DNA from: Aquila chrysaetos chrysaetos
Taxonomy: Eukaryota > Chordata > Aves > Accipitriformes > Accipitridae
NCBI RefSeq assembly: GCF_900496995.4
Contig: NC_044012.1
Coordinates: 25,210,759-25,274,758 of the forward strand
DNA length: 64,000 nucleotides
Direction: 5' to 3'
Below the pieces are notes generated by a model. That model ran no database searches, was not told the origin of the DNA, and saw nothing but the letters and a program-made list of their open reading frames with translations. This document shows, piece by piece, positions 19,131 through 28,706 of the stretch (the first letter of the stretch is position 1; each line of letters opens with the position of its first letter). Position numbers and translations under genes: made by a program.

Positions 19131-21031
19131 AAAGGCAGATTTTTTTTCGACTAAGAGGGGACCCAACTGAAGAGCTTTCCAAGTGCATCCCAAAAACGGC
19201 TTGCAGCCTCCCAGGGCTGTTCATGCTTTGCCAGAGTGTCTTTTCCCATCCATAGGGAGCTGCTTGGCAAAGGGTTAAGCACAGAGGAATGCTGAGTGGC
19301 CGAGCAGGCAGGAAACTAATATCTCCAGACCCTCCCCTTGACCCACAAAAGGAACATCAAAACTCAAAATCTCAACGCAAGCAGAAATCTGGCCTCGTCG
19401 GGATGAATCCCACCAGGGCTGGAGCTGCCAGCTCAGCCAGGAGACTCTTGGTTAGCGTGGGGAGACGTCGAGCTGTGAGAGAGTTAAAGTATTGTGGTTT
19501 TAAAGTGATGGGGGAGGAAAAGGGCAAGGAAGGTTTATGAGGATGGTGGTGGCTTTTATTAGATGAGCGGATGGGGTTGGACGGACCAACCTCTTGGCAT
19601 GCAAACCTGGAGTCGGAACTCAAAGGGATTTGCTGGCTTGGGGCTGAGAAAGGCTCCTCGTGGTTGGATGTGATGATGCAAAACTTGAAAAAACTTGGGG
19701 CGGGGGGCAGAGGTGTGGTACCTGCAGCATGGAGATGCTGCTAAGGGAGCTGGATAAAATGCAGTACAAGGTGATGCAAGGGGGCAAATGAACCCTTTGC
19801 ACCAAACTCTGCTGTTCTTGTGTGGCTGCGAGCACACCGGTGTGCAGCTGGAGCATCCCCAGCAGCGTCCTGCGTCTTCATGATGTGAGGGATGGTCCTT
19901 GGGTGCTGGGGACCACTGGGGAAATGGGGGTGTGGATTTTGAATTGTATTTCTGGCTGGAAGATGAAAATGCTCTATTTTTATTCAGTTTTTTTCCTTTC
20001 ATGTTTGTTCTTACTCACTTTTCATGTCTCACAACACAGAGCAAAAACATCACCCAAAGAGCAGCCAAAAAAAGCAGCCAAACCGTCTTTTCCGTCTCTG
20101 ATCCCATGCTCCTTTCCCAAAACCTAATTCCTATTTTGCGCAATCTCTGTACTTTTACGTCTCTTTTTTTTAATTATTAAAGTGTACGTGCCGAAATCAA
20201 ACCGTAAAAGGTCCTGCAGCGAGGGAGCAGCGTGGGAGCATTGCCTTTCACGTGGGAAAACTCAATGTGCGAGCCAAAAAAAAAAAGGCTTTTCCAGAAA
20301 GGGATGGCAAAGCCAGCTCTCACTCCTCACAATGCCGAACGTGCTGCATCCTGGGGATGCTCTGAGCATCCTGGCACGGTGAAGCCTGGCAGCAGTCAGA
20401 GGCTTGCAGCATGACTGTGAGTTTTACGTTGAGGACGAAGGTGTGAATGAGATCACCGCCATTCCCGGCTCTCGGGTACATTGCGTCATTTCCCAGCTTT
20501 AATAGGCGGAAGCAAAACTTGAAGGGAAATTAAAAAAATGCAGCCGGTAAATAAGACTCTTCCCTTAACAATGACTCGTGCCCAAGCAGATGACATTAGC
20601 AGGATTCCTGCGGAAGTGGCTGGAGGGGACATTGTTTGGTGTTTTCCCTGCCCAAGACGATGACGAGATGGATGAAGGAAACCCAAAAAATCCCTTCCCC
20701 CATGGCACCGGCTGCTGCAGGGTTTCCACCGCTCCCCAAGGTGCCGTGTGCCAGCCAAGAGGTAGGTGGGATGAGCTGCTCTTCCCACGGGAATCCTCTG
20801 AGGAACGGAGGGGCTTTTCTACTGAACAGGCTGTTCTCATTGTCCCATGCGGTTTTCTACTCTAAATAACGTTTTCCTGCCCTTCCCTGCCCTTTTTTTA
20901 AACAGTGGCTGCTTGGGCTGGCTGCTGCCAGCTGGGGTGTGTGGCTCTGCCAGAGAGACTGGGAAATAATAATGTGATACTTTAGATACTTTGAAATGAA
21001 GAAAAAAAATGCACTTTCAAACAGTATTTCT

Positions 21032-21102
21032 TAAAAAAAATTAAATTAAATTATATTAATGTAAAATAAAATAACTTAAAATAAAATAAAATAAAATAAA
21101 AA
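21032..21102. repeat. (TAAAA)n simple repeat
   Basis: An A-rich tract made of TTAAA and TAAAA units, about 70 bases. No target-site duplication or element body is visible, so I do not call it the tail of a retroposon. Confidence 0.8.
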
Positions 21103-23227
21103 CATGTTCCTGGTTCTCACAGTTGGTGCCCACTATGCATCAGGGCGGCAGCTCGCTCTTCCTCTGGGCATCATCCTCACGCGCGGCTCCCAGGGGCTCT
21201 CAGCACGACTGAAACATGAGGGATTTATAACCCCGTGCTGTCCCACCACCAGTTTTAGGCTGAGACGGGTGCTGCAACCGGTCCTTGCTGTCACCGGCCA
21301 TGGGATGCTGCCGGAGGTGATGCTGGGTGGCCCGTCCCAGCATCACGGCTCCAAGATGCTCGTTTTCCAAGCGTTGTCCTTTATTTTTTCCTGCCTTAAT
21401 TAGACCCAGCTCAGCTGCATGAACCCCCCAGGCGCATCTGAGGGCTCTGAGCAATGGGGGGTGCTTCCCATCCCTCCCCTCCCCTCCAAAATACCCCTCC
21501 AGCCACAGCACCGACTGAAATAGGGTGGGTGGTATGAATTGCACCCAAGCACCCATCGACTCCCAGCCCCAGAGGTGTTATCCGCGGGGTCACCAAGCAG
21601 CCGGGAAAATCAGGAGCATCCTTGGAGCAAGGAGAGGGGTTGCTTGTCATGTGTCATGTCTTTTACTGCTCCGTGAGCAAAATAAGGAAGGAAGGGGCTG
21701 TATTACAGCTTTGCTTAATTCTCTAACTTATAAAACCCTTTTTTTCCTGTTTAACAGCAATTTCGTATGGCTGCTATACAAGGTACCACAGAGCATAAAC
21801 TGATATAAATCCAAGAGCTCAGTTTCTTAGCCAGGAATCAGGAATTTTGTTGTTTTTATGCCATGTCTCCTTGCTATCGAGCATACCCTCCCCCCCCCCC
21901 CCTCCCGGTGCTTACAGCTTTCCTCCTCCTCCTCCTCCAAGCCAAGGAGAGAAACCCAGCAGGAAAAAAAGCAAAGGTTATTTCCCTACCCAGCCCCACT
22001 GCTCTGGAAGAGGAAAAATGGGATCGTGGAGCTGCCGGTGATGCTCCTGCTGCCCAAACTGGCCGTGCAGGGTCTGGCCACCACAGCACTAGAAGGCGGT
22101 GACGCCAAGCTGGCTGGTCCCATCCCACCTCGCTCTAAGCACTTGGCAGCTACCCAGGGGGTTTGCATTTTTTTTCCGGAGCGCTGGTGTGCTTATGAGC
22201 TGGTAAACCACTGAAATAAGCTTTCCGGGCTGTTTGTGTGTGACACCATCTACGAGCGGCTGTGAAATTTGCTTTCGAGATTATAAATGAATAAAAAAAA
22301 TTCTGCTAAAAGCCCTCCTCAAATGGCTAGCAAATATCCGAAGGGAATTTTCCCGGGGCTGGTGCTCGTATCCTATCAGAGAAGACGCCGCCGAAAAATT
22401 TCTCCTGGTTTTTGCAAAGCTCCTGCAAGTTTGCAAGCTATTCACAGGGCAAATGTGAGCTGCGGCCGACAAGGGGCTGTGCCCGCCAGGCTCCCATCAC
22501 GCAGACTCTCACAATTTTCCCATTTCTCTTGGGTTTTAACACATTTGCAGTCAGGGGTTTTGGCCAAGCGGGGCAGGGGCATTTCAGCACCTCACTGGCA
22601 TGGATCCATCTGCAAGAGAAAGCGAGAAGTAGCGTTATTAAAATCTCGTTTCACATTTGAGGCAAAAAAAAAAAGCTTTGAGTATTTTTAGCTCCCCAGG
22701 GTGAGAGCGGGTGGGTAATGCTGGGGGCTGGTGCCAGTGATGGCAAAAGCTGGTCCCTCTGAGTCAGAAAATGAAATATTTTGTGTTTAATGAAGTCTTG
22801 TGCCCAATTTCCATGCCTTTTGAAGCAGCTGGGCTCCTCCTGCCATGCAAAGGGCTGGGGTTCAGGCTGGGGACCTGCGGTGCTCCGCCATAGAGGGTTT
22901 TATTTTTAGTGGGATGGGGGACCACCCAACGCCTGGGTGTTCCCCGCTCGTGGTGCTGGCAGCTGGACCCAAGTGTGAGCTGATACCCGGACGAGATTTA
23001 CCCTCGGCTTTTGGGCGACCCGAGCAGCCACCTGCCCTTTGGGAGTTGCTCCAGGCAGCAGCCCGGTGATGCAGCAGCAGCGTTCGCACCACCAACACCA
23101 GCCAAAAATGAATTTTCTCACCAGGTTGGTGGGTTTTGTTCCCCCCAGTGAAACTCCTGAGGCAATTTTGAATCTGAGGGTGTTGGGGTTTGACCAGAGC
23201 AGCGTTACGATGCTATAAATAAATGAA

Positions 23228-23233
23228 TTTATT
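23228..23233 (-). terminator. Polyadenylation signal AATAAA overlapping the stop of receptor A
   Basis: On the minus strand AATAAA shares its TAA with the proposed stop codon. If used, the 3' UTR would be only some 20 bases. This either marks an unusually compact gene end or means that the true last exon lies further downstream. Confidence 0.4.
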
Positions 23234-24721
23234 TCAGGGTGGGGGTTGAGGAAGCAGTTTTACCTTCTGGATGGTTCTCCTGGGTGTACGTGTGGGTGGC
23301 TGGGGGAGGCGAGGAGAGAGCCGTGGCGAAGGGGCTGTGAGGGGTGCGGGGGGGGGGGACGGTCACCTCTGGCCAGATGCCGTCTGCAGAGCAGGGTGGT
23401 CAGCTGGAGCAGGAAAAGGAGGGAGACGCAGGACAGCCCCAGCGCCAGCGGCCAGGAAGGGCATGCTTCTGCAGGGGGGGAACGGAGAGTTAATAGAGGG
23501 GGGGACAATGGGGATTTGGTCACTTGGGAGATCCTGAAATGGGGGGCCAGGGCTGAGCACCCCCCGAAATGAGGGGGTCAGGGCTTTGCAGGGCGGCAGC
23601 AGGCATGTGCCGGTTTAAAGCCTTTCAGTGCAGGGGGATCCCAGTGAAGAGATGGGGGGGGCACAAGGGATTTCCAAATGTGTCTCAACAAGGAACAATT
23701 GGGGTGTAGGGATTTCCTGAATGGGGAAAGGCTGGAAGAATTGGGATGCAGGGGGTGGATGGAGGCTTGGATCTGCAGGAGGGGGTCAGGGATGGACTAA
23801 TTACCCTCCCCGGGTCCTTTAGTGATGGTGACGCTGATGGTCTTGCCCGTGCCGTTCTCCAGGGCCGTGCACACCGCAGCCCCGTCCCACCGCTTGGCCG
23901 AGACCCAGGTGATGCTCCAGGCGCTGAGGATGCCATGCTTGTCCACGGTGGCTGCTGTCACCGGTGTCACCTCCCCACCGGGCTGCCAGCGCACGGTGTC
24001 CCAGCCCGGAGGGAGGTCGTGGAGGTGGCAGAGCAGGGGGATGCTGGCCAGGGGCTGTCCGGGCTCCTCTGCATCGATGGGCACCAGGATGGAGAGCTTG
24101 GGCTCAGAGGCATCTGAAGAGGAAAACGGGAGTGCCATAAACCTCCCCAGGGCTGTCCCCAGCCGCCAGGTGACCTGCCGGGCACTCACTGGTGACGACA
24201 AGCCTGGTCCTATCCCCAAAGAGGGTGTAGAAGTTGGAGGAGCTGCAATAATAAACCCCGGAATCCTCCCTCTGCACGGAGCTGATGGTGAAGGAAAAAC
24301 TCCCCCATGTTTCACTCCTCCCAGAGTATTTTCCCGCCGAAGAGGGGTAGTTCAAGTTCCGGTAAATCCAGTACAAACTGCCGTCCGGCCTCTCCTTGTA
24401 CCAGTTCACGTACTGGCTGTGGTCCAAGACGCGACAGCTCAGCTCTGCCGTCTCTCCAGGGAGCACCCAGAGCTGCCCGGGGCTTTGCTGCACGTGTCTC
24501 ACCTCTGCCAAGGTGGGTCCTGCAGGAGGGGAGCAGTTTTGAGGTGGATTTTCTGCACTTCAGGCTTTCCAACAGATTGCATTAAAAATTATCTGGGGCA
24601 AAAAAAAACCCTAAAAAAACCCTACCCCCCTTCAGCAAATCCCGCCCGGGTTGGGGTATTTCTGGAGCGGGCACATACCTGGCAGGAGGAGCAGGAGGGT
24701 CCCCAGGAGCCCGTAGGACAT
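23229..24721 (-). CDS. Non-rearranging VJ-C1 immunoglobulin-superfamily receptor A, 284 residues
   Basis: Type I membrane receptor in five minus-strand exons, internal junctions all phase 1: 24679-24721 signal (MSYGLLGTLLLLLP), 24190-24519 V-J, 23805-24113 C1-like, 23367-23468 transmembrane, 23229-23299 tail; total 855 bases. The V exon has the first Cys (AELSC), the core Trp (YVNWYKE), the DSGVYYC motif and, with no intron, a J-like strand LFGDRTRLVVT (FGxGT with Asp-Arg in place of x-Gly). The C1-like exon has Cys (PLLCHL), Trp (DTVRW) and Cys (AAVC) and one NGT glycosylation site. The transmembrane segment (LALGLSCVSLLFLLQL) has no charge. The tail has HTYTQE, not an ITIM. The stop overlaps AATAAA (23228-23233), leaving a very short 3' UTR, so a further exon is possible. 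It diverges from receptor B. Domain type is firm; orthology is not known. Confidence 0.8.
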
Positions 24722-26378
24722 GCTGGCCAAAACCCTTTTGCCGGGGAGATTTTCTCTCTGTCTGGGGAGATTTTCTCTCCCTCCCAGGCTGGTGGGGGCT
24801 CTGAGGGATGAGCCTCCCCCCCAGCCGAGGGGATTGGCAACCACACGCCCTGGGGGTGCTCAGAGGAGGCACCCCAGGAGCTGGCCCTGCCCCAGCCAGG
24901 ACGGGGGGGGTCCCCCACGTGTCTGTCCCCCGTCCCGTGTGTCCCCCACACTTGGGGACAGTGCAGCCTCGGCCGCCTCTGTGGGTGACGGAAATTGGGT
25001 GGAAACCATTGTCTGCTGACAGGACCCTTTTGGGCTGGGTTTGGTGCAGGGTGATGCTAGGGGGGGCAGGCTGAGGGTCCCAGGGACCAGCACATCCTCC
25101 AGCCTGGGGGTTTATTTGGGGTTTGGGAGTCCGGGGGGGCAGGAGAGGGGGAATTTGGGGAGGGAACGGTGGAGGGAATTTGGGGAAGGAACCACGTGCC
25201 CTGGTCTCACTTGCAAAATTGAATTTTAGCTCCAGCTCTGTGTTGCAATGGGGCTTTTCATCGCCCTGCCTGTCTCTCCGAGGAGCCCCGGGCTTCGTTG
25301 TCCACTGGTTTTCTGCTCTCCGAGGCAAACGTTTTGCTCGCTGGGGCTGGATTTCCCCCAGCTGCCACGTGGGAGCCGCCAGGAATTGCGCCTGGAGCAC
25401 GGCATCGGCCAACGAGAGGAGTGCATGTAATACGTGCAATCTATAATACGTATCTTCTGCCTTTCTGCAGCAGCTGGAGGCTTTGCTCGAGCTGGAGATG
25501 GCTGCGGTCGTCCTCGCTGCTGAGTTTTGTCACTTCCACAGGGTTTATTGACAACAACCCCCTTCCCTCCCAACCCCCAGCAGTGGGGGTTTGTGATGTT
25601 TTTTGGCGCTGGTTTGGCCGAGGGCTCGGTGTGCTGAACCGCAGCAGGAAAGGCGGTGGCAGGCCTGGGGGCTGGGAATGGCTTTGCAGTTTTTAGTCCC
25701 TTTGAAGGATGTTTTTCTGGGGGGTGGCGGAGCAGCTGGGGGGTGGCGGGGGGAGACTCTCCATCAAATGCTGTTGGGTATTGCCCAAAGCCCAGCGGTG
25801 GTGATGGGATTTCTGCGATTTCAGCATGTTTGGGACCCAGCCGGGGTCAGGAGCGTGGACCCAGCCCCAGTCATCTCCTGGCTGAGACCATCTCCATCCC
25901 CCAGCATCCCCAAAATGCTTAAACCCCCGCCAAGTTCCCCACTCCCAGCCTGGTCCCAGGTACCGCCCAGCTCAGGACCTGCAGCATCTCACCTGGGTTT
26001 TGCATCCAGAAATGATTTTCTCTCCATTTTGGAGGTTTCAGAGGGGGGTTCAGCATGCCTTTGGCTCAGAGCATCGCCCGGGCAGGTTTATTCCCCCAGA
26101 ATGCTCCAAAAACCCCCAAGTTTTGCTCAGAGGCTTCGAAACCAGGGTGGGGGCAAGGGTGGCCGGTGGCATCCCACCCCCAGCACCCTCCTCCTGCCAG
26201 GGATGCTCTGGGATGCGGCGCGTGGCCGAGCGAACATTGTGTCCCCGATGATGAAGCCAGCGGGGTGAGGGGGGGGAGTCACTGCCCTGGGTCCCTGCGG
26301 TTTTGGCAGCGGTGGCAGCTCTGCAAACGGCTCGGCCCCGGGGAGGAGCTGGCCCCTCCATTGCGGTGCCAGCCACCG
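24722..26378. promoter_or_regulatory. Divergent intergenic region between the two VJ receptors
   Basis: About 1.66 kb separates the two start codons, which point away from each other, so both promoters and any 5' UTR exons must lie here. I found no clear TATA box or shared motif by eye. Several open frames here are short and without homology. Confidence 0.5.
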
Positions 26379-28584
26379 ATGGCAGCCAGGGGCTCACTGG
26401 CCCCCGTGGGGCTGCTGTGGCTCTGCCTGGGTGGGTGATGGCGGCAGGGGGGCTGAGACTGGTGGATGGTGGCCAGGCCCGGGTTTGAGGAGATTTCTGG
26501 GCTTTTTGGAGCAACTGGCTGCTGGCGGGGTGGGAGGGTGGTGGTGTTACAGTGGGGCTGGGGGGCAGAATGAGCCCCCGGTTGGTGCCTGCAGCCCCGG
26601 CAGCACTGCTGAGGCTGCACCAGCCCCAGTCCGTCCTGGTTGTGGAGCCTGGAGCGTCGGTGGAGATCGGTTGCAAGGCTGACGAGGACCCGGAGACAAA
26701 ATTTGCTGTGTCCTGGTACCGGCGTGGCAAGGATGGTCCTGACCTGCTCCTGGATGGTGAGAGTGGGACGAAGGGGAGGTTCTCCTGCACGTATGGGAGG
26801 AACAATGTCACCCTGCACATTGCCAGCGCTCAGCCCGACGACACCAGCCTCTACCTGTGTGCCTGCCTCCACATTAATTACTGGGTTTTTGGCAGCGGCA
26901 CCACGCTGCTGGTGGGAGGTAGGACGGCAGCTTCACCCTGATGGCCCCCATGTGACCCCCATGTCCCCTATCCCCTGCTGTCCCCCACTGTCCTGTCCTG
27001 TCCTGTCAGCCTCCAGCATCCTCCTCTGTCCCCCTCCATCTCCTGTGTCCCTCTCTGTCCCCATCCACCACCTCTTGTCCCTCTGCACCCCTCTCCATCG
27101 CCGTCATCCCCGTCCATTCCCTCCATCCCTTTCCATCACCTTCATCCCCCTCCATCCCTCTCCATCCCCCTTGATCCCCCCCATCCCTTTCCATCCCCTC
27201 CACCGCCTTCATTCCCCTCCATCTCCTGTGTCCCCCTCCATCGCCGTCCACCACCCCTTGTCCCTCTGCACCCCTGTCCATCCCTCTCCATCCCTCTCAA
27301 TCCCTTCCACCCCCTCCATATCTCTCCATCCCCTCCATCCCTCTACATCACCTTCATCCCTCTCTGTCCCTCTCCATCTCCATCCGTCCCCATCTACCAC
27401 CCCTTGTCCCTCTCCATCCCCTTCTTCCGCCTCTATCCCCTCTCCATCCCCTTGAATCCCCTCCACCCCGCCTCCATCCCCTCCATCCCGGGTCCGTGCC
27501 CGCATCAGACCCCGCTGCAGCCCCCTCTCCTTGTTGCAGACAGCTGGAGGGCTGGGAGCTGGGTGCGGGTGTTGGCGCCCCATGGTGCCCCCCAGGCCCC
27601 CCCCCAGCCTGGTCTGTGCTGTGGGTGCTACCGCCGGCCCTGTCCTTGTCTCCTGGCCAGGGGAGCCCCCGGGGGTGCTGGGGCTGGGGGGCGGCACGGG
27701 GCCGCTCGTCAGCCCCATGGGCATGGCCGGGGGGCCCGGGGGGCTCTGCGAGGTGAGCTTCAACACCTCCGGGCCCCCCGTCCGCAGGAGCGTGGAGCTG
27801 CACGGGGCCACCGGTGAGTACGGGGGAACCCCCCCTGAGTTGGTCACCCCTGGGGAAACTGAGGCAGTGGGGATGGCTTGGCCCCAGGGCGGCGGGATGG
27901 TGGAGGCTGTTGGGGGTCTGGGGAGGTGACGACAAATGGTGGGATGAGCCAGCCCCTCTCTCCCAGGCAGCTGCATGACCCCCGGCACCTGGGTCCTGGC
28001 CGGGGCTGGGGTGCTGCTGCTGGTCAGCCTCTGCCTCAGCATCCGCCACCTCTGCAGCCCCACGCCGATGGGTAAGGAGCCCGGCACGGCCAGGGGGTGG
28101 CTTGCTACCATGTCCGCCGCTGTCCCCCAGTGTCCTGTCCATCTCACTGTGACCCCTCCACTCCCATGCCCTTCCATCCCCAACCCCCCTCCATCATCCC
28201 TCATCCTGCCCCATCCCCCTCCGTCCCCTTCCGTCCCTCTGAGTCCCCTCCATCCCCATGCTGGGGACACCTCTCCCTGCTCTGTCCCCTCCAGGCCACC
28301 AGCCCAGCACCCCGATTCCACCAGTGTCACGGGAGGATGAGGTGAGGCCGTGCGGCCCCCCGGGTGCCCCCTGGGCCGGGCTGGGGCATCTGGGCTGGCG
28401 GGGAGGCAGCATCCCTCTGTCCCTCTGCTCGGGGACGGCAGGTGACAGGGGACGGTCGCAGCCCCGCCGGTGCCAGACGGGGGAACTGGGGGTGCGGGGG
28501 AGGCTCTGATGGCATCGTCCCCCACAGGGAGGGCTGACGTATGCCCAGCTGAGCTTCGCCACCCCGGGAGGGCCCACGCCGTGA
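26379..28584 (+). CDS. Non-rearranging VJ-C1 receptor B with ITIM tail
   Basis: Six plus-strand exons: 26379-26430 signal (MAARGSLAPVGLLWLCL, start context GCCACCGATGG), 26595-26918 V-J, 27540-27813 C1-like, 27967-28071 transmembrane, 28295-28341 and 28528-28584 tail. The V exon has Cys (EIGC), Trp (VSWYRR), DDTSLYLC and a canonical J motif FGSGTTLLVG in the same exon. The C1-like exon reads LVC, LVSW and GLCEVSF, with NTS and (in V) NVT glycosylation sites. The membrane span is VLAGAGVLLLVSLCLSI. The last exon ends in GLTYAQLSF, a full ITIM (LxYxxL), so the receptor is probably inhibitory through SHP phosphatases. From 27540 the C1 exon is one base out of frame with the next exon. Either a tandem acceptor at 27543 is used (start 27544, total 855 bases, 284 residues), or the C9 run at 27597-27605 has one base too many. 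The frame before the run (VRVLAP) looks more like a C1 strand A. Confidence 0.78.
27000..27490. repeat. Pyrimidine-rich CCATCCC minisatellite in receptor B intron 2
   Basis: Most of the 620-base intron between the V-J and C1 exons consists of irregular CTCCATCCC and TGTCCCTCTCCATC units. A shorter run of the same kind lies at 28140-28290. The strand asymmetry (almost no G) is striking. Confidence 0.85.
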
Positions 28585-28700: not shown

Positions 28701-28706
28701 AATAAA
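28701..28706 (+). terminator. Polyadenylation signal of receptor B
   Basis: AATAAA lies 117 bases after the stop codon, just after a C homopolymer (about 28667-28681). It is the first such signal after the gene. Confidence 0.7.

Follow-up and report, generated by a model that had tools for sequence, protein, structure and literature searches.

Genes in which the variable (V) and joining (J) portions of an antigen-receptor-like domain are already joined have been described: UrIg, NKp30 and PRARP are named as VJ genes in the portion of PMC10751288 considered here, which traces PRARP to Fu et al. (2019, J Immunol 202:1992). UrIg and PRARP, which the original prediction for the present DNA had brought up, are real, published names. 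In this study we describe two neighbouring genes, A and B, in a 64,000-nucleotide stretch of DNA from the eagle Aquila chrysaetos chrysaetos (the window; C9:25210759-25274758 of a 144-contig, 1.23 Gb assembly). We read the locus, with somewhat more confidence than doubt, as two germline-encoded type I transmembrane (TM) immune receptors that belong to the non-rearranging VJ-C1 genes, the closest named kind probably being chicken PRARP.

Judged from the title of Fu et al. and one sentence of PMC10751288, chicken PRARP is like A and B in being a non-rearranging VJ system of two genes in a bird. It is listed in that sentence's source among the VJ genes of the major histocompatibility complex (MHC), whereas the eagle pair lies by a block with APH1 and carbonic anhydrase, and PRARP is set beside the pair by description. 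The locus is plausibly a member of the chicken PRARP family, and this kind of receptor has probably already been reported in chicken. Elasmobranch UrIg, as presented in the same portion of PMC10751288, is also a non-rearranging VJ-C1 gene; it is placed among the MHC class III genes of sharks, whereas the eagle pair adjoins APH1, carbonic anhydrase and CID-domain exons and not MHC class III genes. Both A and B carry a TM exon. UrIg is not known to have a TM part, and the eagle genes differ from it in this respect.

SIRP receptors combine a V domain with two C1 domains, a TM segment and signalling of the immunoreceptor tyrosine-based inhibitory motif (ITIM) type. The eagle pair resembles them in V, C1, TM and ITIM-type signalling, but has one further immunoglobulin (Ig)-like exon in each gene instead of two C1 domains, occupies another locus and carries an FGxGT-like J strand. 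Teleost NITR, according to the part of PMC7916673 consulted, shares VJ continuity and a type I membrane build with A and B, and resembles inhibitory or activating receptors; the A family differs from it in having a C1 second domain and in being found in birds, turtles and alligator. Lamprey NICIP has two Ig-like domains, a TM segment and ITIM signalling, and so offers a model for signalling by B, but it bears two ITIMs and belongs to a jawless vertebrate (PMC5071834, in the portion seen); the likeness is one of build.

Structure of the gene pair

Gene A (minus strand, 23229-24721) and gene B (plus strand, 26379-28584) are adjacent and divergent, as originally predicted, with 1657 bases between their start codons (24722-26378). 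The observed/expected CpG ratio of this spacer is 0.41, and it therefore contains no CpG island. Every intron is of the GT-AG type (four in A, five in B), and the junction phases (1,1,1,1 in A; 1,1,1,1,0 in B) agree with the mostly phase-1 junctions that had been proposed. Both models come to 284 residues, a length that was also predicted; in B it depends on an exon 3 acceptor at 27544 that intact relatives do not use. The signal peptide starts in exon 1 of A (24679-24721, with a phase-1 donor) and is encoded by exon 1 of B (26379-26430). The searches with the V domains of A and B showed no second copy of either gene in the eagle genome.

The pair is real and conserved. The V domain of A is identical, across the 104 columns compared, to an NCBI protein from Aquila chrysaetos chrysaetos (P0001), and that of B is 91% identical to Accipiter P0088 over the same number of columns. 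The domain order is not due to chance, as proteins with the same order are listed for many birds. A search with A returned 87 proteins at E <= 1e-3, few of them nameless, and every named one came from a bird or a turtle. A profile search that scored 8000 candidates gave at least 146 proteins at E <= 1e-10; among the 120 of these 146 that were listed we recognized, by eye, birds, about 20 turtle genera and Alligator (P0191). The corresponding search with B, again with 8000 candidates scored, gave at least 51 proteins, and every named relative among the matches listed was a bird. By eye, the named relatives in these listed matches include no passerine, parrot or falcon for either gene, and no galliform, ostrich or turtle for B. 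The turtle A family shows several entries per species, with at least nine in Pelodiscus on one 25.6 Mb contig, isoforms included.

One relative, P0052, is an uninterrupted A-type protein of 306 residues, running from the signal to a galliform-like TEYAMV tail on a 1275-base contig with 18 member sequences. Since gene A has introns and P0052 is uninterrupted on 1275 bases, it should be a spliced A transcript from some bird.

V domains and the J-like strand

The V exons of A (24190-24519) and B (26595-26918) score 59.3 and 47.8 bits, both above the Pfam V-set cut-off of 26 bits. Each of them closes with a J-like strand, FGDRTRLVVT in A and FGSGTTLLVG in B, so that the eagle A motif is FGDRT and that of B is FGSGT; relatives of A mostly show FGxGT. 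No site resembling a recombination signal sequence (RSS) was found between 23000 and 29000 on either strand, whether the rule applied was strict or loose; for the two rules, shuffled sequence gave mean expectations of 0.01 and 0.335 sites, respectively. As a control we used 57 V-set loci of the eagle genome, many of which are not rearranging V genes; the loose rule detected three of them and the strict rule one of these three, and the sensitivity of the test is therefore modest. Gene A as a rearranging V gene was rejected, as neither rule found an RSS. The proposal that V and J are joined in one exon was borne out by V-set exons that end in a J-like strand, with no RSS found. Because V and J are permanently joined, A and B are probably fixed immune receptors.

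The variation within the families is concentrated in the loops that correspond to complementarity-determining regions (CDRs): mean entropy is 2.1-2.6 in the CDR-like loops vs 0.5-1.1 in the framework for A, and 1.5-2.2 vs 0.5-1.2 for B. Within the eagle genome, all 23 matches of the A V domain beyond itself fall in a cluster at C9 39.26-39.31 Mb, where the two further matches of the B V domain, both weak (E 0.016 and 0.043), are also located. From its sequence we read this cluster as an Ig light chain locus, and an IGLC exon adjoins it.

Second domains

Exon 3 of A (23805-24113) encodes a C1 domain, as predicted, although this was established through its relatives and the eagle exon alone falls below Pfam C1-set. 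The family profile of this domain matches Ig constant domains in PDB, with 61.9 bits for the best full chain and about 20 bits for single domains. The best 60 of 5480 PDB rows were all antibody chains, and the ranks of non-antibody families are thus not seen among them. Pfam C1-set matched three of eight A-family members (best E 2.8e-7; the eagle member is not among them), and PF07654 is precomputed for many turtle relatives.

For B, the proposed C1-like exon was not recognized as C1 by Pfam or by the PDB profile search, in which the profile reached only CD33 and T-cell receptor (TCR) alpha pieces at chance level (E >= 0.25), and B as a typical C1 gene was rejected. In an alignment judged by eye, the first strand and the Cys-Trp-Cys framework are retained and the middle is shorter, which suggests a shortened C1-like domain. 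The whole-chain profiles of A and B can be aligned over their full length (E 5.9e-14 in a two-profile comparison), with the V domain, the Cys and Trp of the second domain, the juxtamembrane Cys and the TM segment in register.

Membrane segments and cytoplasmic tails

The TM segment is encoded by exon 4 in both genes (23367-23468 in A, 27967-28071 in B), with a Cys just before it (codons 23461-23463 and 27972-27974, respectively). TM segments were scored with a heuristic finder in 70 A-family and 35 B-family proteins, counting isoforms and paralogues apart. A Cys lies before the TM start or within four residues of it in 68/70 A and 34/35 B proteins, and the segment is free of charge in 68/70 and 30/35. 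A loose pattern for the ITIM or the related switch motif (ITSM) was matched by 51 of the 70 A proteins, one of them (P0139) clearly falsely, and by 21 of the 35 B proteins. In eagle B, the cytoplasmic part is encoded by exon 5 (28295-28341) and exon 6 (28528-28584), the latter with the ITIM LTYAQL at 28534-28551, a feature absent from the original account.

The A-type tails carry TEYA[ATS][VL] in turtles, TEYVAV in ostrich, TEYAxV in most galliforms, AEYAAV in Lagopus and CEYAA[VL] in swan and ducks. No such motif occurs in Alligator P0191 or in the eagle, nor in any of ten neoavian proteins with a TM segment, P0001 included, many of these models having unsure tails. Exon 5 of eagle A (23229-23299) encodes a short tail that carries no tyrosine inhibitory motif: it does not fit S/I/V/LxYxxI/V/L, it lacks the TEYxxV/L of the turtle, ostrich and most galliform relatives, and no TEYxxV-type exon was found downstream on the minus strand at 19500-23500. 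P0001 aligns to gene A with the same reading through C1 and TM, but differs from it in the first residues of exon 2 and reads the TM exon through to a different stop; the tail and the end of gene A are therefore uncertain.

Five B-type proteins from ducks and geese (P0120, P0123, P0126, P0131 and P0133) have an Arg in the TM segment and no ITIM, and ITIM-bearing proteins occur alongside them. They might be activating forms of paired receptors, or just as well broken copies or errors in the models, since the tail in at least three of them resembles the ITIM exon read in a shifted frame.

Phylogenetic placement

The references in our V trees were all eagle loci, which we labelled from sequence. 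From 60 V-set stretches fetched, 57 were parsed and 34 entered the first tree (49 rows), from which P0091 was left out by the J pattern and in which four B rows were trimmed to 84 residues. The second tree (42 rows) omitted seven rows (HAPLN-like, PD1-like, TREM-like, B7-like, C90x, CD8A-like C5 and TRAV4), all of them among the ten long branches of the first, and kept the remaining three (TRBV1, C7_GDGT and CD8-like C1). This second tree, the best one, groups A and B with Ig light chain, Ig heavy chain and TCR V domains and a CD8-like row (support 66/86), apart from the SIRP, BTN, CD300, PVR-like and other rows. None of five approximately unbiased (AU) tests rejected its group (p values: A+B 0.457; A+SIRP 0.331; B+SIRP 0.434; A+B+rearranging V 0.445; A+B+rearranging V+SIRP 0.447). 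A single clean V phylogeny was rejected, as the deep order did not resolve in either tree.

In the C1 tree, with four eagle reference domains, A forms its own group (98/98), and the AU test gave p 0.162 for A+SIRP. A regular-expression search of 13 stretches for TCR constant exons found none of the alpha, gamma or delta type. Three eagle loci that we read from sequence as BTN cluster together in the V trees, separately from A and B (99/91 and 98/92). The original prediction would have been refuted by nesting of V or C1 in SIRP or butyrophilin; the best trees show no such nesting, but the AU test left A+SIRP unrejected for both domains.

Alternative explanations

A and B could go back to an Ig or TCR locus of the rearranging type, with V and J later fused in the germline, instead of being relics of a precursor that predates RAG. 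The light chain V cluster is the best match of the A V domain, and weakly of the B V domain, among other eagle loci, the best V tree places both genes beside the rearranging V domains, and the named relatives recognized are birds, turtles and alligator. Against such an origin, no RSS trace remains around the genes, the tree support is weak, and the profile search for relatives scored 8000 candidates, so that deeper ones may be missed. We consider this origin rather unlikely. The relic of the antigen-receptor precursor suggested in the original prediction stands as a conjecture: the V trees cannot tell such a pre-RAG relic apart from an antigen-receptor gene in which V and J were joined secondarily, and the listed relatives do not extend beyond the groups just named. 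A and B might instead be paired innate receptors, SIRP-like or of another type, that have diverged and in which the J-like motif is convergent. Their V, C1 and ITIM build, the AU results for SIRP (A in V and C1, B in V) and a turtle relative of A, P0080, that is named SIRP-like by its source are in line with this proposal. However, the SIRP-like exons of the eagle, labelled from sequence, lie at C3 1.46-1.50 Mb with two C1-like exons in reach, and the C1 profile of A scores IGLC (16.6 bits) above TRBC (13.0) and SIRP d3 (11.5; d2 unreported). SIRP kinship is not favoured, and we regard this explanation as quite improbable.

Several observations weigh against the VJ-C1 receptor interpretation. 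Higher variation in loops than in framework is common in many Ig domains, whether or not they bind a ligand; the second domain of B has no C1 match in the Pfam or PDB profile searches, and the second-domain profiles of A and B, taken alone, fail to align; 14 of the 35 B proteins with a TM segment have no ITIM-like motif; and the first V tree placed a PD1-like eagle row with a long branch among the A proteins (98/98), a warning on that tree. In addition, eagle B is out of frame in exon 3 in this assembly. Read from the acceptor that relatives use (27540-27813), the exon gives DSWRAGSWVRVLAPHGAPQAPP and then leaves the frame past a run of nine C (27597-27605), so that the TM segment would be lost; the region is in frame in the Accipiter, Buteo and Haliaeetus proteins, and the second domain of B relatives opens like GDSWRxxSWVRVLAPxGxP..PPSLVCAVG. 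The original model (exon 3 at 27544-27813) regains the frame through its own acceptor at the cost of the first strand, which is replaced by AGGLGAGCGCWRPMVPPRPPP, and of the conserved DSWxxxSWVxVLAP stretch. Gene B could accordingly be a pseudogene, with A alone working, and we give this a chance only a little short of even. Besides the frame break, no Aquila-named row appears among the listed B matches, and the B model of Harpia harpyja (P0099) starts its V domain out of frame and has Tyr at the conserved Cys of the second domain. Yet no other lesion is present, V, TM, tail and ITIM being open in the model, and assembly errors are common at homopolymers within GC-rich DNA; in this assembly eagle B has either lost its function recently or carries an assembly error in the C run. 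For the non-rearranging VJ-C1 interpretation, the joined VJ, the C1 domain of the A family, the absence of an RSS under both rules and the receptor-like build are supported, and for the second domain of B a C1-like nature is suggested by the alignment judged by eye.

Proposed function

As non-rearranging VJ-C1 receptors, A and B would recognize a ligand, on a cell surface or in solution, with the CDR-like loops of their V domains, and are probably inhibitory. Intact B would recruit SHP-type phosphatases via its ITIM and inhibit the cell, and ancestral A would have signalled via its own TEYxxV/L motif. This motif would have been lost in the eagle, and eagle A may therefore bind ligand without signalling alone, or serve as the partner of B. 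The juxtamembrane cysteines could join A to B, or each chain to itself. A more specific proposal, which we put forward as doubtful, is that A pairs with B through disulfide bonding in a germline-fixed V-C heterodimer shaped like a TCR, signalling through ITIMs instead of activating motifs (ITAMs), with chain A dating from the bird-turtle ancestor and linked to what would be an MHC-paralogous block.

Non-rearranging VJ-C1 genes are living evidence on the possible pre-RAG form of antigen receptors. With its clear flanks, many bird relatives and multicopy turtle family, the locus is tractable for work on ligand, pairing, signalling and the question of relic or secondary joining. If it truly belongs to the chicken PRARP family, that family is extended by a divergent pair, a loss of the tail motif and an expansion in turtles.

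Flanking genes and other features

Nine translated pieces of the flanks were compared with Pfam. Four of them scored above the cut-off (APH1 twice, carbonic anhydrase once and a CID domain once), two fell below it (leucine-rich repeat and carbonic anhydrase) and three had no match. By eye, flank translations read as ANP32E, CA14, CIART, MRPS21 and RPRD2. We take the flanking block to be that of human 1q21.2, an MHC-paralogous region. An AATAAA poly(A) signal follows gene B at 28701-28706. Most of intron 2 of B is filled by a C-rich degenerate minisatellite (27017-27489) with periods of about 10, 19 and 29 bases, in which a 183-base unit is present in 1.8 copies at 27031-27360.

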